Shown here piece after piece: positions 6,927 through 61,680 of a stretch of 64,000 nucleotides of DNA. Location of the stretch: the NCBI RefSeq assembly GCF_030412785.1, contig NZ_CP125295.1:1054001-1118000 (forward strand). Direction: 5' to 3'. Source of the stretch: Paraburkholderia sabiae. GTDB lineage: Bacteria > Pseudomonadota > Gammaproteobacteria > Burkholderiales > Burkholderiaceae. Each line of letters starts with the position of its first letter. Positions within the stretch are counted from its first letter, which is position 1. Below the pieces are notes generated by a model that was not told the origin of the DNA, ran no database searches, and saw nothing but the letters and a program-made list of their open reading frames with translations. The translations under genes and the position numbers were made by a program.

Positions 6927-7580
6927 GTCTGCGACGCTAGTCGCCAGTCCTGGTTTTTTCGCTTTTTGTTTTTGCCTTTTGCTGCGGTGGCATCCGCGTT
7001 GACGTATCGGTTCTTCACGCGTTGCCCCTGTGCGGGGCGGCACCTACTTTTCTTTGCAGCGGCAAAGAAAAGTAGGCAAAAGAAAGCCGCTTCAAACCTC
7101 CGGTGCCTGCCAGGATAACGCCACGGCACACGGTGTTTGAGCTGTCGCGCAGCGACGCCAACACTCCGTAGAATGCCCGCAGTCAGGCGCGCGCGGCGCC
7201 AAAGATGACATCCCTTTGGGGCACATTCGGTCGGCCTGTTTTTGTGTGTTTGCCATCGGTCTGATTGCGGCGGTATGTGCTCCAGACGATGTGTGGGGCT
7301 TTCGCGCCGTGCGCGGTTGACTGCGGGCTTTCTACGGAGTGGGGACGTCGCTGCGCGATAGCTCAACTGCGGCATGCGGCAGCGTTATCCTGGCAGGCAC
7401 TGGAGGTTCAAAAGCGGCTTTCTTTTGCCTACTTTTCTTTGCCGCTGCAAAGAAAAGTAGGTGCCGCCCCGCACAGGGGCAACGCTAATAAACCGATACG
7501 AAATCGCGGACGCCAGCGCAGCAAAAAGCAAAAGCAAAAGCAAAAACAAAAAAGCAAGAATGGCGACTAGCGTCGCAGAC
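6927..7580 (+). repeat. Large palindromic intergenic element, copy A
   Basis: A 654-bp imperfect palindrome filling the space between the convergent phoR and ppx genes. Outer ends are gtctgcgacgctagtcgcca (6927-6946) and its exact reverse complement (7561-7580). Inside come a T-rich tract mirrored by an A-rich tract, and a ttgcccctgtgcggggc motif mirrored near 7475-7490. Each arm carries a perfect 15-bp hairpin, cctacttttctttgc / gcaaagaaaagtagg (7043-7057 with 7062-7076; 7428-7442 with 7447-7461). An asymmetric core (about 7200-7285, containing gcacattcggtcgg) gives it an orientation; copies B and C match it, copy D is reversed. It begins 11 nt after the phoR stop and ends 5 nt before the ppx stop. 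No transposase or credible coding sequence is inside. Confidence 0.9.
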
Positions 7581-7585
7581 AAAAA

Positions 7586-9190
7586 TCAATCGGTATACAC
7601 GACACGATACGGCGTCCGAATCTTCTCCCACTCAGCCGCCTCCTGAATAAGGCTATAGTCAGTAAGAGGATTATTCGCAACCCACGCATTCGGCAACCGA
7701 ACTTCATACCCGCCATTCGCCTCGGTAATGGTGATCTCCGGCAACCCGGCATCCGCCCGACGTCGACAAAACAGCGCGGCGAGCCGCAGACAGAACAGCA
7801 GCTTCCATTCGAGATCCCGCGTCTGCGCAAGCTTCCCGAGCTTGCCGGCATGCCCAACAACGAGCGCCGCAAGCCGCGCCTGGTCGGTACGCGAGAAACC
7901 AGGCATATCCGCATTGCTCGCGATATACGCCGAATGCTTGTGATACGCGCTATGCGAAATCGACAGCCCGATTTCATGCAGCGCGGCCGCCCAGCCAAGG
8001 AACATGCGGTTCTCTTCGCGCGCTTCCGTATCGGGCTCGTTGAGCTGATCGTAGAAATGCACCGCAAGCTCGCCGATACGGCTCGCCTGCGCACGATCGA
8101 CGCCGTAGCGGCGCATGAAACCCTCGACCGTGATCGTACGCATGTCCTGATGCTGCGAACGGCCCAGCAGGTCATACAGCACGCCAAGACGCAACGCGCC
8201 GTCCGTCGTGTCGACATAGTCGACGCCGAGTTCGTCGAACACCGCGATCATGATCGACAGGCCGCCCGCCAGCACCGGCACGCGGTCCGGTTTCAGCGCA
8301 ATGAGCTTCAGGCGGTTGACGTTCTCCGCCTTGATCAGTGCACGTTTCAGACGTTCAAGACCGCCACGCGAGATGCCGTGCGTGATGCCGGGATCGTTGA
8401 AGCCGTTCGCTTCGAGCAGTTCGGCCAGCGCACGCGCCGTGCCCGATGAGCCGATGCCCTGTTCCCAGCCCTCGGCCTTGTAGTCGGCCGAAATGATCTG
8501 GATTTCGCGCGAGGCCGCGAGTTCGGCCTGGCGCATCGTGTATTCGTCGACGTTTCCCGCCGGGAAGAACTGGCGGCTGTGGCTTACGCAGCCGATGTAC
8601 AGGCTCTCCATCCGGATCGGCGTGTAGTGCGAACCGATGATGAATTCCGTCGAGCCGCCGCCGATGTCGACGACGAGCCGCTTGCCCGCGCTCGCCGGCA
8701 CCGAATGTGCAGCGCCTGCATAAATCAGGCGCGCTTCCTCGCGGCCCGCGATCACTTCGATCGGGAAACCCAGCGCCGCTTCCGCTTCGCCGAGAAATTC
8801 CTGCGCGTTCTTCGCGACCCGCAACGTGTTGGTCGCGACGGCGCGCACGTGATCGGGATGGAAGTCGCGCAGACGTTCGCCGAAGCGCTTGAGCGCATCC
8901 CAGCCGCGCACCTGCGAAGCACGGTCGAGCATTTTTTCGCGCGACAGGCCCGCGCCGAGCCGCACCGGTTCGCGCAGCGCGTCGACCTGATAGATCTGGC
9001 TGCCCGCTTCGGTTTCTTCGACGCGGCCCACGATCAGACGGAAGCTGTTCGAGCCGAGATCGACGGCGGCAAGTAGTGGCGGAGTGTTGACCATCGGGTG
9101 TGAGGACCTCATGCGCGCAAACAGATCACCCATGCCGGGCGCGCTGGTTCGCGCGTTGTTCAAAGTCGCCATTTTAAGCGTACTGGACAT
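7586..9190 (-). CDS. ppx: Exopolyphosphatase (Ppx/GppA family)
   Basis: Removes terminal phosphate from polyphosphate chains. It has an ASKHA fold with AAVDLGSNSFRLIVG (about 38-52) and VVDIGGGSTEFIIG as the two phosphate-binding loops, followed by a C-terminal HD-type helical region. The start at 9190 is chosen because GGAGGTGA sits 7 nt upstream; it adds about 32 residues before the usual family start MVNTPPLLAAVDLG (ATG at 9094), which has a poor ribosome site, so the shorter form is possible. It is divergent from ppk across a Pho-box-like site and converges on phoR at element A. The 3' end again uses many A/T-ending codons. Confidence 0.94.
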   Translation of the reverse strand: MSSTLKMATLNNARTSAPGMGDLFARMRSSHPMVNTPPLLAAVDLGSNSFRLIVGRVEETEAGSQIYQVDALREPVRLGAGLSREKMLDRASQVRGWDALKRFGERLRDFHPDHVRAVATNTLRVAKNAQEFLGEAEAALGFPIEVIAGREEARLIYAGAAHSVPASAGKRLVVDIGGGSTEFIIGSHYTPIRMESLYIGCVSHSRQFFPAGNVDEYTMRQAELAASREIQIISADYKAEGWEQGIGSSGTARALAELLEANGFNDPGITHGISRGGLERLKRALIKAENVNRLKLIALKPDRVPVLAGGLSIMIAVFDELGVDYVDTTDGALRLGVLYDLLGRSQHQDMRTITVEGFMRRYGVDRAQASRIGELAVHFYDQLNEPDTEAREENRMFLGWAAALHEIGLSISHSAYHKHSAYIASNADMPGFSRTDQARLAALVVGHAGKLGKLAQTRDLEWKLLFCLRLAALFCRRRADAGLPEITITEANGGYEVRLPNAWVANNPLTDYSLIQEAAEWEKIRTPYRVVYTD

Positions 9191-9290
9191 CACGCTGTCA
9201 CCTCCGCCATTGTCGTGCGCTATGGTCACATAAACCTTGCGTCATATTTACGACATGGGTCGGCAAAAGCGTAAAATCACGTGACAAGTC

Positions 9291-9319
9291 ATTTCACGCA
9301 CCTGTCATCATACTGTGAG
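9291..9319 (+). promoter_or_regulatory. Pho-box-like direct repeats upstream of ppk
   Basis: CTGTCAT (9302-9308), then CATA, then CTGTGAG (9313-9319) reproduces the classic PhoB half-site arrangement of 7-bp direct repeats every 11 bp with a 4-bp spacer. A weaker upstream unit, ATTTCAC (9291-9297), keeps the same 11-bp phase. It lies 53 nt before the ppk ATG in the ppx/ppk divergent interval. PhoB control of polyphosphate metabolism is established in other proteobacteria; here it is inferred from the motif and from phoB lying upstream on the same chromosome segment. Confidence 0.6.
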
Positions 9320-9371
9320 AATTTCCGAGCGTCCTTTCGAGTCATCTTCCGACATTTCATTCACGGCGCCG

Positions 9372-11435
9372 ATGTCCAACCGCTATCCTCTTCTGAACCG
9401 CGAGCTGGGCATTCTGGGTTTTAACGAGCGTGTGCTCGCACAGGCCGCGGACCCGGCTGTCCCGCTTCTCGAACGCTTGCGCTTCATCTGCATCACCAGC
9501 AGCAACCTCGACGAATTCTTCGAAGTCCGCATGGCCGGTCTTCAGGAGCAGATGCGCGACAACCCCGGCGCGCTGTCGCCCGACGGCATGTCACTGCAGC
9601 ACTGCTATGACCTCGTGGTCGAACGCGCGCAGAAGCTCGTGCATCGTCAGTACACAATGTTGCAGGACACCGTGCTGCCCGCGCTCGAAGACGAAGGCAT
9701 CTATTTTCACGGCACGGAAGCCTGGAACGAAGCGCAGACCCAATGGGCGCGCGACTACTTCATCAATGAGCTGTTGCCCGTCCTGACGCCGATCGGCCTC
9801 GATCCCGCGCATCCGTTTCCGCGTGTGCTGAACAAGAGCCTGAACTTCGTCGTCGAGCTGGAAGGCAAGGATGCCTTCGGCCGGCAAGCCGTGATGGGCA
9901 TCGTGCAGGCGCCACGCGCACTGCCGCGCCTCGTGCGCATGCCGCAGGAGCTGTCGGGTTATCCGCATGGCTTCGTGCTGCTGAGCTCGCTGCTGCAACG
10001 TTTCGTCGGCGAGCTGTTCCCGGCGTTGCTCGTGCGCAGTTGCAACCAGTTCCGTATCACGCGCAATAGCGAACTGTTCGTCGATGAAGACGAAATTACG
10101 AATCTGCGCGTCGCGCTGCAGGGCGAACTGCCCGCGCGACATCTGGGTAACGCGGTGCGGCTCGAAGTGTCGGCGGACACGCCTGCGCATCTCGTACGTC
10201 GACTGCTTGACGAAAGCGGGTTGTCGCAGAAGGACTGCTACTACGTCGACGGCCCGGTGAATCTCGTGCGTCTGATGCAGTTGCCCGAGATGGTCGACCG
10301 GCCGGATCTGAAGTTCGTCCCGCACATTCCCGCGACGCCGCAGCAGATCGCCACCAGCGCGAGCCTGTTCGACGTGATCGATCAGGGCGATGTGCTGCTG
10401 CATCATCCGTACGAGAGCTTCCAGCCGGTGCTCGAACTGCTGCTGCAGGCCGCGAAGGATCCGAACGTCGTCGCGATCAAGCAGACCATCTATCGCACGG
10501 GCACGGATTCGCCGCTGATGGATGCGCTGATGCAGGCCGCGCGCAACGGCAAGGAAGTGACGGTGGTAGTCGAACTGCTCGCGCGCTTCGACGAAGAGAC
10601 GAACATCAACTGGGCGTCGCAGCTCGAAGCCGTCGGCGCGCACGTCGTGTACGGCGTGGTCGGCCACAAGTGCCACGCGAAGATGATGCTGATCGTGCGA
10701 CGTGTATCGGAAGGCGGCAAGTCGATCCTCAAGCGTTACGCGCACCTCGGCACGGGCAACTATCATCCGCGCACGGCGCGCCTCTATACCGACTTTGGCC
10801 TGATGACGGCGGACCAGAAGATCTGCGAAGACGTGCATCACGTGTTTCAGCAGTTGACTGGGATCGGTGGCGAGTTGCCGTTGCACGAGTTGTGGCAGTC
10901 GCCGTTCACGCTGCATCCGAAGCTCGTCGAATCGATTCGCGCCGAAGCCGAGCATGCGCGCGCGGGCAAGCGGGCGCGGATCGTTGCGAAGATGAATGCG
11001 CTGCTTGAGCCTACGGTTATCGCCGAGTTGTATGAGGCTTCACAGGCGGGCGTGAAGATCGATTTGATCGTGCGTGGTGTTTGTGCTTTGCAGCCGGGGG
11101 TGGAAGGGCTGTCGGAGAACATCACGGTGCGGTCGATCGTGGGGCGTTTTCTTGAGCATCATCGTATTTTTTATTTCTACGATAACGGGCGCGAGCAGGT
11201 TTATCTGTCCAGTGCGGACTGGATGGATCGGAATTTCTTCCGGCGTGTTGAAGTCGCGTTTCCGATCAATAACCGGCGGTTGAAGCGGCGTGTGATTGCT
11301 GAAGGGCTGTCGGCGTTTCTCGGGGATAATCAGGCCGCCTGGCTCATGCAGAGTGATGGGCATTATCGCCGGCGCAGGCCCGGGAAGTCCTCGCGGAATG
11401 CGCAGCTTAGTTTGTTGACGAAGTTCTGTTCTTAA
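9372..11435 (+). CDS. ppk: Polyphosphate kinase Ppk1
   Basis: Membrane-associated enzyme that makes polyphosphate from ATP. The 687-residue protein has the expected order: N-terminal helical domain (RELGILGFNERVLAQA, SSNLDEFFEVRMAGL), head domain, then two phospholipase-D-like catalytic domains. The second half shows IKQTIYRTGTDSPL, KCHAKMMLIVRR and HLGTGNYHPRTARLYTDFGL, carrying the conserved catalytic histidines. The ATG at 9372 is preferred to a GTG at 9315 because that GTG lies inside the Pho-box-like repeat. The last ~130 codons change to T/G-ending usage immediately before element B. Confidence 0.97.
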   Translation: MSNRYPLLNRELGILGFNERVLAQAADPAVPLLERLRFICITSSNLDEFFEVRMAGLQEQMRDNPGALSPDGMSLQHCYDLVVERAQKLVHRQYTMLQDTVLPALEDEGIYFHGTEAWNEAQTQWARDYFINELLPVLTPIGLDPAHPFPRVLNKSLNFVVELEGKDAFGRQAVMGIVQAPRALPRLVRMPQELSGYPHGFVLLSSLLQRFVGELFPALLVRSCNQFRITRNSELFVDEDEITNLRVALQGELPARHLGNAVRLEVSADTPAHLVRRLLDESGLSQKDCYYVDGPVNLVRLMQLPEMVDRPDLKFVPHIPATPQQIATSASLFDVIDQGDVLLHHPYESFQPVLELLLQAAKDPNVVAIKQTIYRTGTDSPLMDALMQAARNGKEVTVVVELLARFDEETNINWASQLEAVGAHVVYGVVGHKCHAKMMLIVRRVSEGGKSILKRYAHLGTGNYHPRTARLYTDFGLMTADQKICEDVHHVFQQLTGIGGELPLHELWQSPFTLHPKLVESIRAEAEHARAGKRARIVAKMNALLEPTVIAELYEASQAGVKIDLIVRGVCALQPGVEGLSENITVRSIVGRFLEHHRIFYFYDNGREQVYLSSADWMDRNFFRRVEVAFPINNRRLKRRVIAEGLSAFLGDNQAAWLMQSDGHYRRRRPGKSSRNAQLSLLTKFCS

Positions 11436-11447
11436 AAGGTTCTTTTT

Positions 11448-12074
11448 GTCTGCGACGCTAGTCGCCATTCTTTGCCTTTTGCGTTTTGCTTTTGGTTTTT
11501 GGCTGCGCTGGCATCCGCGGTTTCGTATCGGTGCTTCAAGCGTTGCCCCTGTGCGGGGCGGCACCTACTTTTCTTTGCAGCGGCAAAGAAAAGTAGGCAA
11601 AAGAAAGCCGCTTCAAACCTCCGGTCCCTGCCAGGATAACGCTACGGCACACGTTCCTTGATCTGTCGCGCAACAACGCAAACACTCCGTAGAAAGCCCG
11701 CAGTCAACCGTGCGCGGCGCGAAAGATGACATCCATCTGGGGCACATTCGGTCGGCTTGTCTTTGTGTGTTTGCCGTCGGTTTGAGCGGCGGTATGCGCT
11801 CAAAACTGTGTGTGGGTTTTTCGCGCCGTGCGCGCTTGACTGCGGGCTTTCTACGCAGTGCGGACGTCGCTGAGCGACAGCTCAACTGCGGCATGCCGCA
11901 CCGCTATGCTGGCAGGCACCGGAGGTTCAAAAGCGGCTTTCTTTTGCCTACTTTTCTTTGCCGCTGCAAAGAAAAGTAGGTGCCGCCCCGCACAGGGGCG
12001 ACGCATGAAGCACCGATACGAAACCGCGGATGCCAGCGCAGCAAAACACCCAGAATGGCGACTGCGTCGCAGAC
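11448..12074 (+). repeat. Large palindromic intergenic element, copy B
   Basis: Second copy, 627 bp, between the convergent ppk and olsB genes. The left terminal gtctgcgacgctagtcgcca is intact (11448-11467); the right terminal copy (12056-12074) has lost two bases (actgcgtcgc instead of actagcgtcgc). Both arms keep the hairpin cctacttttctttgc / gcaaagaaaagtagg, and the core motif gcacattcggtcgg near 11742 is in the same orientation as copy A. It starts 12 nt after the ppk stop and ends 6 nt before the olsB stop. Short open frames inside recur in all copies and follow from the repeat itself. Confidence 0.9.
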
Positions 12075-12080
12075 AAAAAA

Positions 12081-12896
12081 TCAACGGCCTAGCGCATCAC
12101 CAAGAAAATGCCGCGCATACCGCGCATTGATCTCCTCCAACCTGAACAGCGTCAAGAAATCAGCGGTATTGAAATCAGGATCCCACGCCGGGGCACCACA
12201 AATCTTCGCCCCGAGCCGCAAATAACCCTTGATCAGCGGCGGCGGCGCAACCTTCGCCCCAGTCTGCAATTCTTCGACAGGCAACGGCGTATGCGGAAAC
12301 GCACGATACTCCGGCGTCGTCAGCGCATCATCGGCCATCGATGCATACAGGTTGGCAGCATAGTGCCCACCGTCAGCCATCGCGACGCTCGCGCAGCCGA
12401 GCATCGTCTCGTAACCGTTGTGCTGCATGTACGAGCCGAGACCCGCCCACAGCGACATGATCACCGAGCCGCTGCGATAGTCGGGATGCACGCACGAGCG
12501 GCCCACTTCGACCATCTTCGAGCGCAAGTGCGTGAGACGCGATACATCGAACTCGCCCTCGGCATACAGGCGGCCGATACGCGCCGCCTGGTGCGGCGGC
12601 AGCACGCGGTACGTGCCGACCACCTTCAGCGTGTCGAGATCGCGGACGATCAGGTGATCGCAGTAAGCGTCGAACGAATCGACGTCGAGGCCGGCAGGAC
12701 CGGACAGGCGCGCGCCCATTTCCTCGGCGAAGACCCGGTAACGCAGACGCTGCGCTTCACGAAGCTCCTCGTCGGTGCGCGCCCACGACACTTGCAGACG
12801 ATGCTGGGCAGTGACCGTTTCTTCCGTGCGCGGCAAACGACGACGCGGCTCGAGGATCGATGCGAAGGGCAGGGTTGGCGTCGGCAGTTCTCGCAT
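12081..12896 (-). CDS. olsB: Ornithine-acyl-ACP N-acyltransferase-like protein (OlsB family, GNAT fold)
   Basis: Probable first enzyme of ornithine-lipid synthesis, transferring a 3-hydroxyacyl group from ACP to ornithine. The 271-residue protein has the OlsB/haemolysin-type layout: RLQVSWARTDEELREAQRLRYRVFAEEMGARL (about 30-62), the DHLIVRDLDTLKVVGTYRVL strand pair, VEVGRSCVHPDYRSG, and late PPLIKGYLRLGAKICGAPAWDPDFNTADF. The ATG at 12896 is chosen because AGGA lies 7 nt upstream; the frame continues to 12971 without support. Its position beside pst-pho-ppk fits a phosphate-limitation role, since ornithine lipids replace phospholipids. A generic acyltransferase cannot be excluded from sequence alone. 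Confidence 0.8.
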   Translation of the reverse strand: MRELPTPTLPFASILEPRRRLPRTEETVTAQHRLQVSWARTDEELREAQRLRYRVFAEEMGARLSGPAGLDVDSFDAYCDHLIVRDLDTLKVVGTYRVLPPHQAARIGRLYAEGEFDVSRLTHLRSKMVEVGRSCVHPDYRSGSVIMSLWAGLGSYMQHNGYETMLGCASVAMADGGHYAANLYASMADDALTTPEYRAFPHTPLPVEELQTGAKVAPPPLIKGYLRLGAKICGAPAWDPDFNTADFLTLFRLEEINARYARHFLGDALGR

Positions 12897-13061
12897 GTGG
12901 CGTTCCTGGTCGAAAATGTGAAATTCGCTTCGACGCCAATGTAGTAACGGCTGGTGACGCTCACGTGGCAACGTCGTGACGATTCAATGACGTGTCGTAA
13001 GGCCGCCGCTTTCGGCGCGCCTTCGGTGTTGTAATCACGCGACCCGCCAATGCGGCCTGAA

Positions 13062-13520
13062 TCAGATCAGGTCGCTGGTGATCGCCGCAAGCAGCACAGC
13101 CTGCTCGTCATTGCCGCGCGTGCGGCTCTCGATCCACCAGATCGCTGACTTCTTGATCGGCCAGCTCGCGCCGCTGTCGGCGAGCAGGCGGGCGACGACA
13201 TGGCCGAGCGTCGGCTGATGGCCGACCACCACGACGGTCGGCGCGATGCCGTTGGGCCAGCCGGCTGCCGTGAGCACATCCGCGGCACTCGCGTCCGGCG
13301 CGATCTCGCGCACGACGCGGTATTGGTCCGTCAACGATTCGGCCGTCTGGACGGTGCGCGTGGCAGGGCTCGCGAGGATCACGGCGTCGTCGGGAAGACG
13401 CGCGCGCAGCCATTTCGCGGACGCCTGCGCCTGCTTGCGGCCGCGTGTCGTCAGCTGGCGGGCGAGATCGCTCGAGGCCGTGTCTTCAGCTTCGGCGTGA
13501 CGCCAGAGAATCAGGTTCAT
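13062..13520 (-). CDS. sixA: Phosphohistidine phosphatase SixA-type
   Basis: Small (152-residue) histidine-phosphatase-superfamily protein. The catalytic motif LILWRHAEAED places the phosphate-accepting histidine at residue 8, and the partner histidine is in VVVVGHQPTLGHVV. SixA proteins remove phosphate from histidine residues of phosphotransfer proteins; length and motif spacing match that branch rather than the larger phosphoglycerate mutases. GGAG precedes the ATG by 8 nt. It lies on the minus strand upstream of olsB with about 165 nt between them, so it may or may not be co-transcribed. Confidence 0.87.
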   Translation of the reverse strand: MNLILWRHAEAEDTASSDLARQLTTRGRKQAQASAKWLRARLPDDAVILASPATRTVQTAESLTDQYRVVREIAPDASAADVLTAAGWPNGIAPTVVVVGHQPTLGHVVARLLADSGASWPIKKSAIWWIESRTRGNDEQAVLLAAITSDLI

Positions 13521-13710
13521 GGCGGTGTCTCCAGGTGCGTGTCGTGACGATCTTTCGATCTATCGACAAGTATGGACAACGTAGGGCGAGGGGAGTTTTG
13601 TCGTTCTGCGTTTCTGGATCGTTTCCGGATTTTTATCGCGCGCATGTTTCGGCCGTGCGATGGATCCGCGTTCGCGCCGCGAGAACCACGCAGCGGAAAA
13701 ACAACGGCAG

Positions 13711-13751
13711 AAAAACAAAAACCCGCGACACCGGAAGGTGAGGCGGGTTTT
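13711..13751 (-). terminator. Intrinsic terminator downstream of tRNA-Pro
   Basis: The stem aaaacccgc (13717-13725) pairs with gcgggtttt (13743-13751); an inner cacc/ggtg stem extends it. Read leftwards, the stem is followed by a T-rich run (complement of 13711-13720). It lies just past the 3' end of tRNA-Pro and would end that transcript. Confidence 0.65.
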
Positions 13752-13768
13752 CGTGTACGGCATGTTGG

Positions 13769-47857: not shown

Positions 47858-48517
47858 GTCTGCGACGCTAGTCGCCATTCCATTCTTTTGGTTTTTGGTT
47901 TTTTGTTTTTGCTTTTGCTGCGCTGGCATCCGCGGTTTCATGTCCGTCTGCTAGCGTTGCCCCTGTGCGGGGCAGCACCTACTTTTCTTTGCAGCGGCAA
48001 AGAAAAGTAGGCAAAAGAAAGCCGCTTCAAACCTCCGGTGCCAGCCAGAATAGCGCTACGGCACACGGTCTTTGAGCGGTCGCGCAGTGACGCAAACACT
48101 CCGTAGAAAGCCCGCAGTCAGGCGCGCGCGGCGCGAACGACGACATCCGCCTGGGGCACATTCGGCCAGCACGTTTTTTTGCCTTTTCCGTCGGTCTGAT
48201 TGCGGCGGTATGTGCTCCAAACTGTGTGTGGGCTTTTCGCGCCGTGCGCGCCTGACTACGGGCTTTCTACGGAGTGTGGAGGTTGCTGCGCGACAGCTCA
48301 ACTGCAGCATGCCGCGGCGCTGCCCTGGCGGGCACCGGAGGTACAAAAGCGGCTTTCTTTTGCCTACTTTTCTTTGCCGCTGCAAAGAAAAGTAGGTGCT
48401 GCCCCGCACAGGGGCGACGCTAGCAAAACGAAACGAAATCGCGGATGCCCAAGCTGACACATACGGCGACTAGCGTCGCAGACAGAAAAAACCAGAATGG
48501 CGACTAGCGTCGCAGAC
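47858..48517 (+). repeat. Large palindromic intergenic element, copy C
   Basis: Third copy, 660 bp, between the duplicated-domain lipoprotein gene and convergent iolB. The left terminal gtctgcgacgctagtcgcca starts 7 nt after the lipoprotein stop. The right terminal sequence is present twice, at 48464-48483 and 48498-48517, the second ending 8 nt before the iolB stop. Core orientation (gcacattcgg near 48156) matches copies A and B. Both arms keep the 15-bp cctacttttctttgc hairpin. Confidence 0.9.
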
Positions 48518-54227: not shown

Positions 54228-54273
54228 GTGTGTGTCCCGGTTGTGCTGTAGGCAAAAGAGAGAGCGCCAGGGC

Positions 54274-55077: not shown

Positions 55078-55095
55078 GATCGTTTCCCCTGTCGA

Positions 55096-56274
55096 TTACG
55101 ACTGCGCCACGCGACGGCGCACATAGTGGTTGAACAGCACCGCGATCAGCAGCATCACGCCGAGGAACACGCGGAACCAGTCGGAACTGACGTTCGTATA
55201 GGTGATGCCGATCTGCACGACGCCGAAGATCAGCGCGCCGAAGCACGCGCCCACTACCGAGCCATAACCGCCCGTCAGCAGCGTGCCGCCGATCACCGCG
55301 GCGATGATCGCTTCGAATTCTTTTTGCAGGCCGCGGTCGGCGGCAGCGGAACCGATGTCGCACACCTGCAGCACGGCGAACAGGCACGAGCAGAAGGCCG
55401 TCAGCACGAAGAGGGAAATCTTCACGCGGCGCACGGGCACGCCGACATTCTTCGCGGCATTCGCATCGCCGCCGACGGCGAGCACCCAGTTGCCGTAGCG
55501 CGTCTTCGCGAGGACGAACGCACCCACAGCGGCCAATGCGAACCACCACAGCAGCACTTTGGGAATGCCGGGGACGAGCGGCTGGCCGTTGTCGAGCAGC
55601 GAGCCGATGCCCATGTGCGCGAGGCTCGTGAAGAGGCCGTGCAGCGCGACGCCATGAAACAGGAAGTTGGTCACGGCATCAGCCTGCGCGAGATCGCCGA
55701 CACCGGAGATGATCGTGCGGTCCGCGACCATGATCGACAGCGCGAGCGTCAGGCCGCGCAGAATGAAGAGGAACGCGAGCGTCACGATGAACGACGGCAG
55801 GCGCGTGCGCATCACGAGATAGCCGTTCAGTGCGCCGAGCGCCATCGAGCCTGCGAACGCGAAGATGATGGACGCCCAGATCGGCCAGTGAAAATAGACG
55901 GCGGGAATCGCGACCATCATGCCCGCGAAGCCGATCATCGAGCCTATGGAAAGATCGAACTCGCCGGCGATCATCAGCAGACACGCGCCGACGGCGAGAA
56001 TGCCGAGATACGCGGACACCTGCGACCAGTTCATCACGCCGTCGAGGTTGAACATGCCCGAGCTGCCCGCCGTGAGCGCGAACACGAGGAAGACCAGCAC
56101 GGTGCCCGAGATCGCGGCGAATTCCGGCCGGTTCAGCACATGGCCGAAGAACGATTCCTTGCGGATGCGTTCGTCAGCGGGGTTCGCCGGTGCGGTGGAT
56201 TGCGCGGTGGCGTCCGACGCGTCGTTCGGTGCGTCGTGACCATGCGATGGAAAGTGTTTGCCGGCTACGCCCAT
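55096..56274 (-). CDS. Sugar (probable myo-inositol) ABC transporter permease
   Basis: A 392-residue permease of the RbsC family. A long hydrophilic N-terminus (about 1-45) precedes ten or so membrane helices. The motif IAGEFDLSIGSMIGFAGMMVA and the coupling loop NYG/RYGNWVLAVGGDANAAKNVGVPVRRVKISLFVLTAFCSCLFAVL are typical. The start at 56274 is chosen because GGAG lies 5 nt upstream; an in-frame ATG at 56292 is the alternative. It is preceded in the transcript by a strong stem-loop that separates it from the binding-protein gene. Confidence 0.9.
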   Translation of the reverse strand: MGVAGKHFPSHGHDAPNDASDATAQSTAPANPADERIRKESFFGHVLNRPEFAAISGTVLVFLVFALTAGSSGMFNLDGVMNWSQVSAYLGILAVGACLLMIAGEFDLSIGSMIGFAGMMVAIPAVYFHWPIWASIIFAFAGSMALGALNGYLVMRTRLPSFIVTLAFLFILRGLTLALSIMVADRTIISGVGDLAQADAVTNFLFHGVALHGLFTSLAHMGIGSLLDNGQPLVPGIPKVLLWWFALAAVGAFVLAKTRYGNWVLAVGGDANAAKNVGVPVRRVKISLFVLTAFCSCLFAVLQVCDIGSAAADRGLQKEFEAIIAAVIGGTLLTGGYGSVVGACFGALIFGVVQIGITYTNVSSDWFRVFLGVMLLIAVLFNHYVRRRVAQS

Positions 56275-56422
56275 GATGTCTCCAATGTCCATGCATTCAG
56301 CTCTGACGCGCGGTTTCACTCGTGAGAGTGGCGAGAGACGCGCGGAAAGCCGGTGAAGATCGCGGTCGGGGCGCCCGACGATGGCGGCTGTCATCGCACA
56401 AAAAAAAGCGTGCAAAGGTCCG

Positions 56423-56451
56423 CCGGGGTCGCGCGATGCTGGCGCGCCCGG
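56423..56451 (-). promoter_or_regulatory. Stem-loop between the binding-protein and permease genes
   Basis: ccggg and cgcgc (56423-56434, 2-nt bulge) pair with gcgcg and cccgg (56442-56451) around a 7-nt loop, with no T tract. It parallels the stem-loops between pstS and pstC and may protect the binding-protein mRNA. This is inferred from position and structure only. Confidence 0.45.
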
Positions 56452-56481
56452 TACCGCGTATTGGCTAAAGAAGTCAGTCCG

Positions 56482-57537
56482 TCAGCGGTACTGGCCCGCG
56501 TACTTGATGACCTTGTCGATATTCGCCTTCGTGATGAAGCCCGGACCGGAACGGATGTTCTTCGGCCCATACGACGGCTCGAGGCCGTAAGTTTGCAGAC
56601 GCTCCTTGAACTTCGGATTGGCCTGCAGGATCTGCCGGATCTTCGTCGGATCGGTCGTGTGTTCTTTCTTCACGATCGCCAGCACGGCGACGGCGATATA
56701 GCCTTGCAGATACGGCTGCTGATCGATCGCGAACTGGATCGTGCCGTCCTGGATGCCCTTCGCGATGTCGTCCGAGAAGTCGAACGTGGCGAAGTAGATT
56801 TTGCCCGCGAGGCCCATCTGCTGCACGGCCTTGATCGTCGCCGAAGCGGGCGTCGGTCCGAGCGTCAGGATCGCGCCCGTCTTCGGATGGTTGCGCAGAT
56901 AGGCGCTGACCTTCGACTGGATTTCCGTCGGGTCCTGGCCCGAATCGATCGTGGAGGTCTTGTAGTTCACGCCGAGCGCATCCGCGAAACCGCGGCAACG
57001 CTCGAACGACACGACGTTGGTCGCGAAGTGGTTCACGCACAGGAACGACTTCACGCCGGCAGCCTTGGCTTTTTCGCCCGCTGCCTTGCCCGCCACGTAT
57101 TCAGGCTGGCCGATGTGCATGATCGCGCCGAGTTGCGCGCTCTGTTCTTCCGTGCCCGAGTTGATCGTGACGAGCGGAATCTTCTTGCCCGTGACCTTGC
57201 CGAGCGAGCTCTTCAGCACGTCGAAATCGGCGATGGTCACGATCACGCCGTCATAGTTGCGCGCGGCCGCCTGCTCGATCAGGCGCGACATGTCGGCGAG
57301 ATCGCCGTTGGGCGGGTTGCGGTAGTCGGTTTCGACGTTGAAATCTTCGTCGGCCTGCTTGATCGCATTCTTGATGGTGTTCCACCACGAGTCGGAGTCC
57401 GGCGCGTGGCTGATCAGCACGAACTTCGCGTCCGCCGCCTGCGCCGTCGATGCCGCCGTCATCGCGCCGATGCCCGCCGCCAGCGTCAGCGCTGCTGCCA
57501 GAACCTTGAACGAAGCCTTGCCTTTGCAAAGTCTCAT
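56482..57537 (-). CDS. Sugar (probable myo-inositol) ABC transporter substrate-binding protein
   Basis: A 351-residue periplasmic receptor of the ribose-binding/LacI-like fold. The signal peptide is cleaved near AQA-ADA (about 35). The domain starts KFVLISHAPDSDSWWNTIKNAIKQADEDF and has VTIADFDVLKSSL, LVTINSGTEEQSA, NHFATNVVSFERCRGFADAL and FATFDFSDDIAKGIQDGTIQFAIDQQPYLQGYIAV, the hinge-type segments of this family. GGAG 3 nt before the ATG at 57537 decides the start. First gene of the inositol operon, reading away from the RpiR regulator. Confidence 0.9.
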   Translation of the reverse strand: MRLCKGKASFKVLAAALTLAAGIGAMTAASTAQAADAKFVLISHAPDSDSWWNTIKNAIKQADEDFNVETDYRNPPNGDLADMSRLIEQAAARNYDGVIVTIADFDVLKSSLGKVTGKKIPLVTINSGTEEQSAQLGAIMHIGQPEYVAGKAAGEKAKAAGVKSFLCVNHFATNVVSFERCRGFADALGVNYKTSTIDSGQDPTEIQSKVSAYLRNHPKTGAILTLGPTPASATIKAVQQMGLAGKIYFATFDFSDDIAKGIQDGTIQFAIDQQPYLQGYIAVAVLAIVKKEHTTDPTKIRQILQANPKFKERLQTYGLEPSYGPKNIRSGPGFITKANIDKVIKYAGQYR

Positions 57538-57656
57538 TGTCTCCACCTTTGTCTGTTCGTATTTGAGGGGAGCGTCTGACGCTTTGCGAGGTGATGCCGG
57601 CTCGCCGTTGCGTCATCGCTCAGGACCAAGAGTAGGCCAGTTTTTCGAGACGTGCA

Positions 57657-57669
57657 ATGAAAATTTCAT
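57657..57669. promoter_or_regulatory. Palindromic operator-like site in the iol divergent promoter
   Basis: ATGAAA-A-TTTCAT is a 13-bp palindrome about 120 nt upstream of the binding-protein ATG and 150 nt before the regulator ATG. It is a candidate secondary operator for the RpiR regulator; it resembles, but does not match, the GGAA-N6-TTCC pattern. Confidence 0.4.
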
Positions 57670-57680
57670 GTCAAAGAAAA

Positions 57681-57700
57681 AATGGAAAATCCATTCCATT
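57681..57700. promoter_or_regulatory. Candidate IolR operator GGAA-N6-TTCC
   Basis: AATGGAA (57681-57687), AATCCA, TTCCATT (57694-57700) is a perfect 7-bp inverted repeat with a 6-nt spacer. The core GGAA-N6-TTCC is the motif reported for RpiR-type IolR in rhizobial inositol genes. It lies in the divergent interval between the importer operon and the regulator, where it could control both. Confidence 0.6.
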
Positions 57701-57819
57701 TGCTTTCGGTTCTGCCTATACTCCGCAACGTCGGGACAGTGCATTTCCGTTCGTTTGCGTTCTGCGAAACGCGTTTCGGGTGCGGTTTTGCGCTGCAAAA
57801 AAACACAGAGGTCAGCGCC

Positions 57820-58701
57820 ATGCCGGAAGACAGCACAGAAGAGTTGCCGAGCGTCGAAGAATTGATGCAGCGCATCGCGGAGAACTACGAGTCGTTGCCG
57901 CGTCAGTTGAAGAGCGTCGCGACGTATCTCGAGCAGCATCGTTCGAGCGTGATGGTCGATCGCACCAGCGACATCGCGGCGAGTTGCGGCGTGCATCCGT
58001 CCGCCGTGGTGCGCTTCGCGCAGCGTTTCGGTTTCTCGGGCTTTTCCGATCTGCAGGCGGTGTTCCGTCAGGCGTACACGACGCAGGGCGGTTCGGCGCA
58101 GAGCTATCAGCAGCGCATCCGCAAGCTGATCGACGAGAAGCCTGGGCGGCTGTCGGGCGGCAGTGTCGCGCGGGAATTCGTGGCCGCGTGCCGCGACGGT
58201 CTGGACGAACTCGAAGGCTCGCTCGACGACGCGCAGTTCGACGCCGCCGTGAAGATGCTGCAGCAGGCGGACAACATCTATGTGATCGGCGTGCGGCGCT
58301 CGTTTCCCGTCGCGAGCTACATCGTCTACGCGTTGCAGCACACGCCGAAGCGCGTGCATCTGGTGTCGGGATTCGGCGGGATGTATCGCGAGCAGATTCG
58401 CAGCGTGAAGAAGGGCGATGTCGTGATCGCGATCAGCTTCGCGCCGTACGGCAAGGAGACGCAGTATTGCCTGCGCGTCGCGCATCACCATCAGGCGAAG
58501 ACGCTCGTCATTACGGATAGCCAGCTATCGCCGCTCGCGCGCTATGCGAGCACGCAGCTGTATGTGAAAGAGGGCAGCGCGTTTGCGTTCCGCTCGCTGA
58601 CCAGCACGATCTGCCTGTGCCAGGCGCTGTTCATCGCGCTCGCGTACAAGCTCGAATTGAACGTAGAAGAGTCGACAGACACTGGAGGATACGATGACTG
58701 A
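57820..58701 (+). CDS. iolR: RpiR-family regulator of inositol catabolism
   Basis: A 293-residue regulator: N-terminal HTH_6 domain (about 10-85, with VATYLEQHRSSVMVDRTSDIAASCGVHPSAVVRFAQRFGFSGFSDLQ) and C-terminal SIS sugar-phosphate domain (about 125-270, NIYVIGVRRSFPVASYIVYAL, GDVVIAISFAPYGKET, AKTLVITDSQLSPLA). The start at 57820 follows AGAGG; upstream in-frame ATG 57682 lies inside the proposed operator and is unlikely. Position at the head of iolG and divergent from the importer supports control by an inositol-derived sugar phosphate. Confidence 0.9.
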   Translation: MPEDSTEELPSVEELMQRIAENYESLPRQLKSVATYLEQHRSSVMVDRTSDIAASCGVHPSAVVRFAQRFGFSGFSDLQAVFRQAYTTQGGSAQSYQQRIRKLIDEKPGRLSGGSVAREFVAACRDGLDELEGSLDDAQFDAAVKMLQQADNIYVIGVRRSFPVASYIVYALQHTPKRVHLVSGFGGMYREQIRSVKKGDVVIAISFAPYGKETQYCLRVAHHHQAKTLVITDSQLSPLARYASTQLYVKEGSAFAFRSLTSTICLCQALFIALAYKLELNVEESTDTGGYDD

Positions 58702-59713
58702 AGTGGCAGGCAAGACGATCGACGTGGCAGTGTTCGGCGCGGGGCGCATCGGCAAGATTCATGCGTCCAATCTCGCGCGGCAGCCGGGCGTGCGGCTCAA
58801 GTATGTGGTCGACGTGAATCGCGAGGCGGCGGCAGCGCTCGCCGCGCAATACGGCGCGCAGGTGGCCGATATCGACGGCGCGATGGGCGATGCGTCGGTC
58901 GGCGCGACGGTGATCTGTTCGAGCACCGACACGCACGCCGATCTGATCCTGCAATCGGCGGCGCAGAAGAAGCACGTGTTCTGCGAGAAGCCCGTCGATC
59001 TGACGCTGGAACGCGCGCGCGCCTGCGCCGATGCCGTCGCGAAGGCGGGCGTCGTGTGCATGATCGGCTTCCAGCGCCGCTTCGATCCGACGTTCGCGGC
59101 GCTGAAGGCGCGCATCGATGCGGGCGAAATCGGCACGCCGGAAATGCTCGTCGTGACGAGCCGCGATCCGGGCGCGCCGCCCGTCGAGTACATCAAGCAC
59201 TCGGGCGGCATTTTCAAGGACATGCTGATTCACGACTTCGACATCTTCCGCTGGATTCTCGACGACGACGCGGAGACCGTGCACGCGACGGGCAGTTGTC
59301 TGTCCGATCCGGCGATCGCCGAGGCGGGTGATATCGGTTCGACGGCGGTGACGATCCGCACGAAACGCGGCCGACTTTGCCAGATCAATACGGCGCGGCG
59401 TGCCGCGTATGGCTATGACCAGCGCTTCGAAGTGCTCGGCAGCGAAGGGATGCTGCAGGCGGGCAACGTGCGTCCGACGGAAGTGACGGCGTATTCGAAG
59501 TCGGCCGTATCGAGCGACGTGCCGGAGCACTTCTTTCTCGAACGTTATCGCGCTGCGTACGCGCTCGAAATCGCGCATTTCTTCGAAGCCGTCACGCAAG
59601 GCAAGCCGGTGCGCACGACAGTCGCCGACGGCATGAAGGCGCTCGAACTCGCCGAAGCCGCGACGCGTTCGTGGCGCGAAGGCCGCGCGGTGAAGCTCAA
59701 CGAGGCGCTGTGA
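58694..59713 (+). CDS. iolG: Inositol 2-dehydrogenase IolG
   Basis: Oxidises myo-inositol to 2-keto-myo-inositol with NAD. The 339-residue Gfo/Idh/MocA protein has the Rossmann motif VFGAGRIGKIHASNLA (about 10-26), the FCEKPVDLTLERA segment with catalytic Lys (about 97) and HDFDIFRWIL with the active-site Asp/His pair. AQKKHVFCEKPVDL and GFQRRFDPTFAALK are typical of bacterial IolG. It overlaps the regulator gene by 8 nt and the next dehydrogenase by 1 nt (TGATG). Confidence 0.92.
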   Translation: MTEVAGKTIDVAVFGAGRIGKIHASNLARQPGVRLKYVVDVNREAAAALAAQYGAQVADIDGAMGDASVGATVICSSTDTHADLILQSAAQKKHVFCEKPVDLTLERARACADAVAKAGVVCMIGFQRRFDPTFAALKARIDAGEIGTPEMLVVTSRDPGAPPVEYIKHSGGIFKDMLIHDFDIFRWILDDDAETVHATGSCLSDPAIAEAGDIGSTAVTIRTKRGRLCQINTARRAAYGYDQRFEVLGSEGMLQAGNVRPTEVTAYSKSAVSSDVPEHFFLERYRAAYALEIAHFFEAVTQGKPVRTTVADGMKALELAEAATRSWREGRAVKLNEAL

Positions 59714-60735
59714 TGAGCGGCGGACCATTGCGGGTCGGTATCGTCGGGTTGGGGCGGCTTGGCAAGCGGCACGCGGAGAACCTCGCGTACCGCGTGTCGG
59801 GCGCGGCGCTCGTGGCCGCGTGCAGTCCCGTCGAAGCCGAGCGCGAGTGGGCGCGCAACGCGCTGCCCGCGCCGCGTCTTTACGACGATTACGCCGCGTT
59901 GCTCGACGATCGCGATGTGGATGCCGTGTGGCTCGTCACGCCGTCCGCGCTGCACGCGCAGCAGATCGTCGATGCGTTGCGTGCGGGCAAGCATGTGTTC
60001 TGCGAGAAGCCGCTGTCGCTGGATCTTGCCGAGTGCGAGCGCGTGATCGCCGAGTCGCAGCGTCATCCGCAGTTGCAGGCGACGATCGGCTTCATGCGCC
60101 GTTTCGATCCCAGCTATCGCGACGCGTTCGAGAAGATCGAGGCGGGCGCGATCGGCCGTCCGTTCATGGTGCGTTCGCAGACTTGCGACCAGAACGATCC
60201 CGAGGGCTTTTTCGTGCGCTTTGCGCCGACGTCAGGCGGCATTTTTCTCGACTGCACGGTGCACGATATCGACGTCGCGCGCTGGCTGCTCGGCATGCCG
60301 AAGGTGAAGCGCGTATATGCGAGCGGCGTGATTGCGCTGCACGAAGGCTTGCGGGAGTTCGGCGATGTCGACAACGGCGTGGCGATCTGCGAGTTCGAGG
60401 GAGGGCGGATGGCGATGTTCTACGCGTCGCGGACGCTGGCGCATGGCAACGACACGGGCAGCGAAGTGATCGGTACGGCGGGCGCGCTGTATGTCGGGCG
60501 CAATCCGCGTCTGAATCGCGTAGAAATCGCGGATGCGAGCGGTATCCGCAACGAGTGCACGCCGACGTTCTTCGATCGCTTCGAGGACGCGTTCCTGCAT
60601 GAAGCGCGGGCGTTCGTCGCGGCTGTCAGGGAAGGGCGGCAAAGCGGGGCGACGTTGGCCGACGCGATGGAGGCGACGCGGATTGGTTTTGCGTTGCGTG
60701 AATCGCTTTCGAGCGGGCAGGCCGTCGACCTGTGA
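59713..60735 (+). CDS. Second Gfo/Idh/MocA oxidoreductase (inositol-like substrate)
   Basis: A 340-residue paralogue of the preceding gene. It shows VGIVGLGRLGKRHAENLAYRV (about 8-28), GKHVFCEKPLSLDLAECERVI with the catalytic Lys, IGFMRRFDPSYRDAFEKIEAGAIG and HDIDVARWLLG. Coupling to iolG by a TGATG junction says it acts in the same pathway; oxidation of another inositol isomer (scyllo- or D-chiro-inositol) is a reasonable inference but not shown. Its last ~30 codons use more G/T-ending triplets, as does the following tusA-like gene. Confidence 0.85.
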   Translation: MSGGPLRVGIVGLGRLGKRHAENLAYRVSGAALVAACSPVEAEREWARNALPAPRLYDDYAALLDDRDVDAVWLVTPSALHAQQIVDALRAGKHVFCEKPLSLDLAECERVIAESQRHPQLQATIGFMRRFDPSYRDAFEKIEAGAIGRPFMVRSQTCDQNDPEGFFVRFAPTSGGIFLDCTVHDIDVARWLLGMPKVKRVYASGVIALHEGLREFGDVDNGVAICEFEGGRMAMFYASRTLAHGNDTGSEVIGTAGALYVGRNPRLNRVEIADASGIRNECTPTFFDRFEDAFLHEARAFVAAVREGRQSGATLADAMEATRIGFALRESLSSGQAVDL

Positions 60736-60846
60736 TCGTCGTGGGCGCGTCCGGGTTTTCGCGGCCTGGGCGCGCTTTGTGTGCTTACGTTAAAATTTGA
60801 GCCTTCTGCATGGCGCTGAGTGCGCCGCCTCGGAAGGTCATCGTCG

Positions 60847-61083
60847 ATGGAAATTCAGATTCACAAGGAAGTGGACGCGCGCGGGCTGAAATGCCCGTTG
60901 CCGATTCTGCGCGCCAAGAAGGCGCTGGCTGATATGGAAAGCGGTCAGATTCTTAAAGTGCTGGCTACGGATCCCGGCTCGCAGCGGGATTTTGCTGCTT
61001 TTTCCAAGCAGACAGGGAATGAAATCGTCGATAGCTCGACGATGCCGGATAAGGTTTTTGTGTTTTTGATGCGGCGGCGTTGA
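60847..61083 (+). CDS. TusA-family sulfurtransferase-like protein
   Basis: A 78-residue TusA/SirA/YedF-type protein. EVDARGLKCPLPILRAKKALADM contains the CPxP motif with the persulphide-forming cysteine (Cys16). Such proteins relay sulphur for tRNA thiolation, molybdenum cofactor or other pathways; the partner is unknown here. The ATG at 60847 fits the family N-terminus. The gene has T-rich codon usage in its 3' half and ends 9 nt before element D. Confidence 0.9.
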   Translation: MEIQIHKEVDARGLKCPLPILRAKKALADMESGQILKVLATDPGSQRDFAAFSKQTGNEIVDSSTMPDKVFVFLMRRR

Positions 61084-61092
61084 AGGGTTTTT

Positions 61093-61680
61093 GTCTGCGA
61101 CGCTAGTCGCCAGTTTTTGCTTTTTTGCTTTTTGCTTTTTGCTTTGGCTGCGGTGGCATCCGCGAATTCGTTTCGGTGCTTCAGGCGTTGCCCCTGTGCG
61201 GGGCGGCACCTACTTTTCTTTGCCGCGGCAAAGAAAAGTAGGCAAAAGAAAGCCGCTTTTGTACCTCCGGTGCCCGCCAGGGCAGCGCCGCGGCATGCCG
61301 CAGTTGAGCTGTCGCGCAGCGACCCCCGCACTCTGTAGAAAGCCCGCAGTTAACTGCGCACGGCGCGAAAGCACACACACAGTCTGAGCACATACCGCCG
61401 CAATCAACCGACGGCAAACGCACAAAAACAAGCCGACCGAATGTGCTCCAAGTGGATGTCTTTTTTCGCGCCGCGCGCGGCTGACTGCGGGCTTTCTACG
61501 AAGTGTTGGCGGCGCTGTGCGACCGCTCAAAGAAACGTGTGCCGTAGCGTTATCCTGGCCGGCACCGGAGGTTTGAAGCGGCTTTCTTTTGCCTACTTTT
61601 CTTTGCCGCTGCAAAGAAAAGTAGGTGCCGCCCCGCACAGGGGCAACACTAGCAAACCGATACGAATTCGCGGATGCCAG
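61093..61680 (-). repeat. Large palindromic intergenic element, copy D (reversed, right end degenerate)
   Basis: Fourth copy, between the TusA-like gene and convergent galU. The left end gtctgcgacgctagtcgcca is intact (61093-61112). Hairpin arms are at 61209-61223 with 61228-61242 and near 61592-61625. The core reads ccgaccgaatgtgc (61433-61446), the reverse complement of copies A-C, so this copy is inverted. The right terminal sequence is lost; in its place gatgccagc is repeated three times (about 61673-61716). A separate terminator then precedes the galU stop. Confidence 0.85.

Follow-up and report, generated by a model that had tools for sequence, protein, structure and literature searches.

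Between the convergent genes phoR and ppx of Paraburkholderia sabiae, and again between ppk and olsB, stands a copy of one and the same palindrome (phoR, ppx and olsB are named here as in the preliminary description). This raises the question of what kind of element it is, by which rule it is placed and what it does to the genes on either side. The window, meaning the whole stretch of DNA that was analysed, covers 64,000 nt of the forward strand (GCF_030412785.1, NZ_CP125295.1, positions 1,054,001-1,118,000), and the coordinates given below refer to it.

Structure of the window copies

Four related and mutually alignable copies are present in the window, as had been described: copy 1 (6927..7580, + strand) between phoR and ppx, copy 2 (11448..12074, +) between ppk and olsB, copy 3 (47858..48517, +) and copy 4 (61093..61733, - strand), whose core has the opposite orientation. 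The flanking genes are convergent in 4/4 cases, the small gene to the left of copy 4 being called at a lower score threshold only. Copy 4 had been assigned a right end at 61680; the profile match extends to about 61733, where the element, lacking a terminal repeat on this side, adjoins a terminator-like hairpin that looks like galU's own terminator. The terminal inverted repeats, the T-rich and A-rich tracts and the asymmetric core were all seen again. The terminal repeat, GTCTGCGACGCTAGTCGCCA, is a small hairpin facing inward and followed by a T-rich tract; it lies at 6927..6946 (+) and 7561..7580 (-) in copy 1, at 11448..11467 (+) on the left of copy 2, at 47858..47877 (+) and 48498..48517 (-) in copy 3, and at 61093..61112 (+) on the left of copy 4. 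The right end of copy 3 consists of two such repeats in tandem, the second at 48464-48483 with one mismatch. Each element carries two subterminal hairpins, as reported, with a stem of 14 bp and not of 15. They are located, without strand, at 7044..7075 (14-bp stem, 4-nt loop) and 7429..7460 in copy 1, 11565..11596 and 11948..11979 in copy 2, 47979..48010 and 48364..48395 in copy 3, and 61210..61241 and 61593..61624 in copy 4. The short distances to the stop codons were likewise recovered, with 11, 12, 7 and 9 nt on the left and 5, 6 and 8 nt on the right of copies 1-3.

Copy 1, the window copy on which whole-element folding was performed, forms as DNA one end-to-end hairpin of -313 kcal/mol (z -41.8 against 20 shuffles), and the interiors fold far above shuffles in 8/8 cases tested (z -11 to -20). 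All 214 detected hairpins have perfect 13-bp arms, the inner 6 pairs being a detection requirement, and the stem ends in GTAG. Two different hairpin types are combined within one copy in 22 of the 97 two-hairpin copies, and the capacity to form hairpins is retained across subfamilies with differing interiors. Covariation within the genome gave 8 pairs changed on both sides against 4.7 +/- 1.7 in shuffles (84/115 copies, those scoring under 560 or carrying inserts being dropped), which is not convincingly higher, and it was set aside as weak structural proof. Most full copies measure ~540-700 bp. The element matches no RNA family in Rfam, two tRNAs alone reaching gathering scores over the window, and a phage origin was rejected since the phage collection gave no match.

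Placement across the genome

The genome-wide search supports a real, structured and dispersed family with a placement rule. It recovered 115 element clusters, 58 in convergent, 52 in co-directional and 5 in divergent gaps, against a background in the same stretches of 120 convergent, 496 co-directional and 175 divergent gaps among 791 of at least 50 nt. Convergent gaps are thus enriched for elements (Fisher p = 8e-16), an enrichment that is understated because the background counts element-bearing gaps too. Among copies facing a 3' end the convergent share is 58/110, compared with 240/736 of gene 3' ends (p = 1.5e-5). The absence of copies from divergent and co-directional gaps, as first described, is true of the window; genome-wide the preference is strong, but the 52 co-directional and 5 divergent clusters refute exclusively convergent placement. 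The element stands directly downstream of a stop codon in 103/115 clusters, and the rule of placement is immediately after a stop codon, not convergent gaps alone. A collision barrier between converging polymerases, which had also been considered, is unsupported as the main explanation, because a single neighbour reads inward in 52/115 clusters and none in 5. In the annotation of one deposited record, an element lies where a MOSC gene and a tautomerase gene converge.

With up to 4 mismatches allowed, the terminal repeat was found at both ends in 19/115 clusters, at one end in 46 and at neither in 50. With at most 1 mismatch it occurs at 73 places genome-wide, 7 of them outside recovered elements, and the proposition that the terminal repeats are common free-standing terminators was rejected on this count.

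Terminators in related genomes

The element is absent from many relatives, and in most of those the gap contains an intrinsic terminator where the element stands in this genome. Wherever an empty relative was comparable, the native terminator had been replaced by the element; empty sites thus exist, and at occupied sites the native flanking sequence is replaced. In related species the same gap may contain the element, lack it or contain an apparent remnant. Copies 1 and 2 have terminator-like calls at either end, which comprise inward hairpins and T-containing tails (e.g. ACCTACTTTT or CATTCTTTGC). Such sites number 11 in 5.4 kb against 6.3 expected, and their tails are not canonically placed right after the stem. 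The terminator-like role suggested earlier is plausible, given that the element occupies the intrinsic-terminator position of most relatives; that its ends act as the terminators they displaced is a weaker proposition, and they may do so.

C-to-T footprint beside the elements

Genes beside the elements carry an excess of T over C at third codon positions. In stop-facing genes (n = 161), third-position T/(T+C) falls from 0.728 over the final 60 nt to 0.196 at distances above 1.6 kb, with controls at 0.19-0.25. Of the 139 abutting genes (a gene had to lie within 60 nt of the element edge to be counted), 136 surpass the 95th percentile of the controls. Where no element is present, gene ends have next to no footprint (0.249 convergent, 0.223 co-directional). 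The signal decays over ~1 kb on both sides, and the strand affected is the one pointing 5'->3' at the element. In start-facing genes (n = 53, sides on which a further element lay less than 6 kb away being dropped) the median is 0.279 versus 0.167 in 494 controls (p = 2e-14), and 26/53 lie above the control 95th percentile; here it is the template strand of the outward gene that carries the excess. On stop sides the footprint has roughly double the strength seen on start sides, and therefore transcription probably contributes. For the 5 divergent copies the ratio within 600 nt is 0.22-0.32, the counts being small.

The same trend is apparent when the window genes are compared with relatives counted as element-free. 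In the last 300 nt before the stop, T3/(T3+C3) is 0.72 for phoR (6613..6912, +) compared with an average of 0.256 over 68 relatives, 0.62 for ppx (7589..7888, -) against 0.269 in 73, 0.62 for ppk (11133..11432, +) against 0.235 in 73, and 0.69 for olsB (12084..12383, -) against 0.224 in 63. Counted from relative-conserved bases in four window genes (sites less than 85% conserved among relatives being dropped), C>T changes affect 38/338 C sites in the 400 nt nearest the stop and 22/608 at more than 800 nt from it, and C>G changes 14/338 and 5/608, respectively; G>A shows no rise near the stop in these genes. The T-rich and A-rich tracts of the element look like the peak of this footprint.

The stop-side footprint is also found in two further genomes, G249 (17 genes) and G261 (10 genes), and in 5/7 genes of other records (0.50-0.74). 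Caballeronia L189 has the element in 1/2 gaps, and the footprint is confined to the genes of that gap; at three further Caballeronia copies it is modest (L195 and L209, 0.31-0.36) and weak or absent (L302, 0.37 and 0.25). The start sides hardly replicate elsewhere (0.36 in G249, 3 genes; 0.28 then 0.19 in G261, 4 genes). Some gene ends affected by the footprint were missed or poorly scored by the gene finder.

Concerted evolution at shared sites

In the compared stretch, the site of the element is shared with G249 at 7/8 adjacent gene pairs and with G261 at 7/7. Orthologous copies are no more alike than non-orthologous ones (0.55-0.56 for this genome, 0.74 for the other two). Within a genome, by contrast, the likeness between copies is 0.81-0.88; IS-carrying copies were dropped from this comparison, and L189, L195, L209 and three distant outgroups from another. 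The interiors differ between species at shared sites. The palindromes are thereby shown to evolve in concert, homogenised species by species at sites that are mostly shared. The ppx-ppk block, bounded by copies 1 and 2, is inverted relative to relatives, and the number of hairpins of the main type ranges from 0 to 342 per genome across species.

Candidate mobilising and cutting enzymes

An IS481-family insertion sequence occupies the left-hairpin loop position in 13 other copies. It was rejected as the mobiliser of the family, having its own, different ends, with the hairpin loop as its target. The genome-wide search for a Y1 transposase (PF01797) gave one match, in a 3291-base locus without family hairpin or anchor, and RAYT mobilisation was discarded. 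No SbcD in this genome exceeds the curated cut-off (best 51.4 bits, cut-off 77.65), and SbcCD was rejected as the cutter on that ground. Among the other 11 genomes searched, SbcD is below the cut-off in 10 and over it in G213, which has 97 hairpins together with it. Cells that have SbcCD do not stably maintain long palindromes.

Proposed mechanism and alternatives

We propose that the palindrome repeatedly exposes 3'-ended single strands, which are repaired from sister copies, and that it occupies the position of the terminator, a model whose chances of being right or wrong we consider evenly balanced. Single-strand exposure at the elements is well supported as a reading of the mutation footprint, that is, of indirect base composition; the breaking step, its enzyme and the terminator role are what we infer. 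The palindrome would extrude a hairpin or cruciform, which would then be opened or cut. The 5'-ended strands would be resected, leaving 3'-ended single strands on which cytosines deaminate; an equivalent process exposing 3'-ended strands could take the place of breakage and resection. Homologous-recombination repair would copy from other elements, and this copying would homogenise the family, swap interiors and, on occasion, flip the segment lying between two copies. Dispensable flanking DNA would be eroded over time to the first essential base, whether that belongs to a stop codon or to the promoter of the next gene. It can be tentatively hypothesised, with rather less than even confidence, that this is a natural repeat, selfish or tolerated, which maintains itself through breakage, with recurrent exposure of 3' single strands at more than 100 fixed sites, rewrites itself from its sisters so that entire interiors are exchanged and the palindrome is retained, replaces terminators and hypermutates the last kilobase of adjoining genes in a strand-specific manner.

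The footprint could also be driven by transcription. The element would then be a strong bidirectional terminator or pause site, at which stalled polymerase and R-loops expose the non-template strand to cytosine deamination, and concerted evolution would be ordinary gene conversion among repeats. The terminator position, the T-tailed inward hairpins called at either end of copies 1 and 2, the strength of the footprint on the coding strand of genes reading into the element, and start sides that are weaker and hardly replicated in G249 (3 genes) and G261 (4 genes) are all consistent with it. However, the start-facing excess of the 53 genes lies on the outward gene's template strand, opposite to what R-loops of that gene would give, so that antisense transcription reaching the element would be needed, and gene ends without an element are almost flat; we consider it unlikely, if still worth keeping in mind. 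A smaller probability attaches to selection for a regulatory module that protects 3' ends or terminates transcription in both directions and has spread through its effect on expression; the bias would then be a side effect of U-rich 3' regions being favoured. It is in keeping with the position, the terminator replacement and the REP-like stop-codon distance, REPs at most 15 nt from the stop being described as affecting translation in PMC12306157. Yet the bias reaches third codon positions hundreds of bases into genes and affects the template strand of outward genes, and many relatives manage without the element.

Equally improbable is a non-autonomous transposable element, a giant REP/BIME- or MITE-like unit with a strict choice of sites near terminators and a transposase lost or located elsewhere. 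High copy number, terminal inverted repeats, the variation in copy number between species (0-342 main-type hairpins per genome) and the 3' extragenic location known for REPs speak for it. Against it stand the single Y1 match, whose locus contains no family hairpin or anchor, the many ends without terminal repeats, the sharing of most sites in the compared stretch and the differing interiors at those sites. It may describe the family's origin. If the model of repeated exposure and repair is true, some bacterial chromosomes hold more than 100 built-in sites of recurrent single-strand exposure, which shape nearby codon usage, stop codons, terminators and gene order, and which offer a natural replicated system for break-associated mutagenesis, concerted evolution and the survival of long palindromes in bacteria. 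On the practical side, a warning is warranted that such repeats can end contigs.

Relation to known systems

Terminator replacement, concerted evolution and the C-to-T footprint are new beyond the preliminary description. The palindrome family is undescribed in the titles and abstract openings searched, a scope that excluded most subscription papers and bioRxiv preprints; of six motif strings sought in the literature, one occurs in a single unrelated rat paper and five in none. PMC3733652 presents REP/BIME sequences, with GTAG- and CGTC-tagged families, as dispersed extragenic palindromes. The present family resembles them in its location, which is predominantly 3' to genes, near stop codons and in gaps of the co-directional or convergent kind (110/115 clusters), and in serving as an IS target. 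It differs in its length of ~600 bp against REP units of 20-40 bp, the element being no tagged 20-40-mer although its stem ends in GTAG, and no RAYT association was found here, where the genome-wide search gave the one Y1 match. It also begins at the stop codon and stands in for the terminator, its interiors vary between species, and it has a strand-specific mutation footprint. With MITEs it shares a non-coding nature, high copy number and, at some of its ends, terminal inverted repeats; however, its ends are often missing, its sites are mostly shared with relatives in the compared stretch, a non-exhaustive search found no transposase with matching ends, and no target duplication is visible, native flanks being replaced. 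Bidirectional intrinsic terminators occupy the same place between convergent genes and likewise have inward hairpins followed by T-containing tracts, but the element is several times longer and its tails do not directly follow the stem. In E. coli, long palindromes have been studied as break sites in work on SbcCD and RecBCD, as single engineered sites. The likeness would lie in a DNA hairpin being opened or cut, with recombination carrying out the repair, whereas here a natural family of more than 100 members inhabits genomes that are mostly without a recognisable SbcD.

Results

Copies in the genome and their placement

The four palindromic copies described in the window are present at 6927-7580, 11448-12074, 47858-48517 and 61093-61733 and can be aligned with one another. 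Across the P. sabiae genome (G000; 9.9 Mb, four contigs), the hairpin pattern gave 197 matches per strand with up to three mismatches, and the reversed pattern gave none; the asymmetric core pattern occurs at 105 places and a second hairpin type at 41, several of those listed falling within these same elements. The listed matches, those of the hairpin and core patterns among them, were compiled into 111 places, of which 110 regions were fetched and merged with the window into 1.52 Mb. Genes therein were called by a self-trained coding model, elements were located by profile, and pieces less than 1.7 kb apart were joined, giving at least 115 clusters (at least 108 on contig C1 and at least 7 on C2). 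C1:2414040-2416755 is a tandem of three element units, the last one with an insertion sequence (IS), and C1:6485836-6486425 bears a similar non-standard terminator-like hairpin at both ends, resembling an extended inverted repeat, which would fit the copying of one flank to the opposite side.

Exclusive placement between convergent genes, stated in the preliminary description for the four copies, does not hold genome-wide: the 115 clusters comprise 58 convergent, 52 co-directional and 5 divergent gaps, against a background of 120, 496 and 175, respectively, among gaps 50 nt or longer across these regions (element gaps counted in). Adjacency to a stop codon is the sharper placement rule. A facing stop lies within 150 nt of the inner anchor at one end or more in 103/115 clusters, and at both ends in 43 of the 58 convergent ones; the terminal repeat, where present and stop-facing, is 4-22 nt from the stop in 65 of 71 cases. 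Some of the ends that seem far from a stop apparently adjoin missed genes, as before C1:2826080. TAG is enriched among element-facing stops (44/145 vs 93/988; chi-square p = 1e-12).

An IS481-family IS sits within the hairpin loop of 13 element copies (e.g. L031:8300-9700, in a fetched locus), with an apparent short target duplication. Fifteen copies of this IS were found in the genome, the other two no more than ~260 nt from a copy of the terminal repeat, and the element hairpin may be its sole target there. Contig C1, with 6,584,006 bases, is nearly twice as long as C1 of the close relatives G249 (3,759,946) and G261 (3,707,493). This difference may reflect a chromosome-chromid fusion, as reported for Cupriavidus necator KK10 (PMC8729776), or an assembly join.

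A C-to-T footprint in flanking genes

Third-position T/(T+C), read on the strand pointing 5' to 3' at the element, is 0.728 in the last 60 nt of 161 stop-facing genes and falls with distance to 0.560 (240-300 nt), 0.415 (400-500), 0.274 (700-900) and 0.196 (beyond 1.6 kb), the control remaining at 0.19-0.25 throughout (494 genes). The last 100 nt of element-free gene ends give 0.249 (convergent, 148 genes) and 0.223 (co-directional, 419). The footprint is equal on the left and right sides of the element (0.672 vs 0.654), and of the 139 genes that abut an element, 136 lie above the 95th percentile of the controls. On the start-facing sides of co-directional copies the values are 0.345 (0-100 nt, 114 sites), 0.418 (100-200), 0.30 (200-400) and 0.24 (400-600), compared with 0.16-0.20 beyond; the divergent copies, with small counts, show 0.22-0.32 in the first 600 nt. 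The per-gene start-side median is 0.279 (53 genes) vs 0.167 in 494 controls (p = 2e-14), rising to 0.342 for the 28 genes starting within 150 nt of the element.

In the four window genes, changes away from bases that are conserved among as many as 32 relatives were counted less than 400 nt and more than 800 nt from the stop. C>T changes affect 38/338 sites near the stop vs 22/608 far from it (relatives, 0.021 per site), C>G 14/338 vs 5/608, G>T 11/404 vs 3/625 and G>A 6/404 vs 12/625.

The footprint recurs in independent cases. The four window genes stand at 0.62-0.72, their relatives' means at 0.22-0.27 (63-73 relatives). In the Caballeronia locus L189, where the element occupies solely the ppk/phoR gap, ppk and phoR reach 0.55 and 0.56, and ppx and olsB are both at 0.25. 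The 85-nt ppk/phoR gap of L190 is T-rich then A-rich without an element body, between genes at 0.58 and 0.62, and this stretch looks like the remnant of a lost element. Two loci with the element, L195 and L209, show modest values (0.31-0.36); the top ppk value among loci counted as element-free, 0.66 in L187, comes from a contig that stops ~600 nt past ppk. The stop-facing last 100 nt give 0.714 in G249 (17 genes) and 0.655 in G261 (10 genes), the start sides 0.36 in G249 (only 3 genes) and 0.28 dropping to 0.19 in G261 (only 4 genes). Seven stop-facing genes from five further records have 0.74, 0.37, 0.25, 0.60, 0.68, 0.50 and 0.54 over backgrounds of 0.18-0.24, both low values (0.37 and 0.25) coming from one Caballeronia copy.

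Replacement of native terminators and inversion of ppx-ppk

Among 80 ppk loci compared, ppk is convergent with phoR in 71/71 with a readable gap and olsB with ppx in 64/64; no locus shows the pairing seen in the window (phoR/ppx, ppk/olsB). The ppx-ppk block between two element copies (window 6927-12074) is inverted relative to the 71 readable loci and to G249, which has both elements in the usual gene order. Three Caballeronia loci carry the element in the ppk/phoR gap. Leaving aside these and three distant outgroups, a terminator-like site is present in 49/68 ppk/phoR gaps (median gap 96.5 nt) and 41/58 olsB/ppx gaps (113 nt) of the relatives, and no element was found in these 68 and 58 gaps. 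Element-free orthologous gaps, which the preliminary description proposed to look for, do exist; mostly they carry a terminator-like site. In the window the element occupies both gaps, and the native spacer is recognisable in neither.

In one co-directional gap, G251 has a stop, a terminator and a downstream stretch; P. sabiae, G249 and G261 have the stop, the element and the same downstream stretch. In a second, G249 has a terminator-like hairpin without element, and P. sabiae and G261 have the element. The galU gap holds elements of differing sequence in P. sabiae, G249, G261 and G262, and a terminator-like hairpin in G251, whose GalU is 100% identical in protein to that of P. sabiae, and in others.

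Shared sites, unshared sequence

Eleven elements at 1.05-1.45 Mb of P. sabiae C1, with flanking genes 82-96% identical, were compared by site; one was testable in neither G249 nor G261 and three more not in G261. The same gap is occupied for 7/8 adjacent gene pairs in G249 and 7/7 in G261, and G249 has the element at two further sites, which are rearranged. Orthologous copies resemble each other no more closely than non-orthologous ones: between-anchor similarity of orthologous copies is 0.561 for P. sabiae-G249 (n=8), 0.553 for P. sabiae-G261 (n=5) and 0.741 for G249-G261 (n=3), and that of non-orthologous copies 0.558, 0.553 and 0.738; copies within a genome reach 0.879, 0.812 and 0.877 in the three genomes. 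Interiors fold as long hairpins in 8/8 cases (z -11 to -20; two each from these three genomes, one each from two Caballeronia loci). Perfect 13-bp arms occur in 214/214 detected hairpins, detection itself requiring the inner 6 pairs, and of the 97 insert-free copies in which two hairpins, no more and no fewer, are present, 22 have unlike types at the two ends. We read these comparisons as concerted evolution in which the palindrome is preserved. Covariation within P. sabiae is weak (84 copies, 89% alike).

The main hairpin type occurs in 13 of 249 family genomes, P. sabiae included, all within the 30 of its own genus; this pattern overlooks subtypes, since G262 has the element with 0 matches. 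The 21 matching plasmid records are all from Paraburkholderia, Caballeronia or Burkholderia. A related pattern occurs in 4/160 genomes of the order (P. sabiae included); two of these four, which belong to another family, have a single related hairpin between putative nrdA and nrdB genes (L295, L296 ~1500), beside GC-rich sequence.

Discussion

On both sides of the element, the affected strand has its 3' end toward it, and this geometry is that of a resected two-ended break. Single strands in which uracil and abasic sites are bypassed would be expected to show C>T together with C>G. We strongly infer that the affected strand is recurrently single. An R-loop of the outward gene itself is no explanation because A/(A+G) decreases, rather than increases, on stop-facing and start-facing sides alike. 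The start-facing sides speak for breakage, as against transcription, as the possible source of the single strand; the signal is twice as strong on the stop sides, which suggests an additional share of transcription. It can be hypothesised that ectopic repair would bring about homogenisation, mixed hairpins, tandem units (C1:2414040-2416755) and the ppx-ppk inversion, and that repeated loss of dispensable DNA would have eroded the native spacer as far as the stop codon.

Long palindromes are unstable where SbcCD is present. No SbcD over the cut-off was found in 11 of the 12 genomes searched, P. sabiae included, so that the classical cutter is seemingly absent here; the same search matched SbcD in 13/14 control genomes (E. 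coli included), over the cut-off in 8. This absence may be the reason why such palindromes persist, with G213, which has 97 hairpins plus SbcD, as an exception.

Among known repeats, REPs are the nearest kind, sharing with the element its location, palindromy and closeness to stop codons (PMC3733652, PMC12306157, PMC1590033, PMC6060812). The element differs from them in its size, in its lack of a RAYT partner, in replacing the terminator and in the footprint around it. By analogy, it may work partly like a terminator and partly like an engineered break palindrome.
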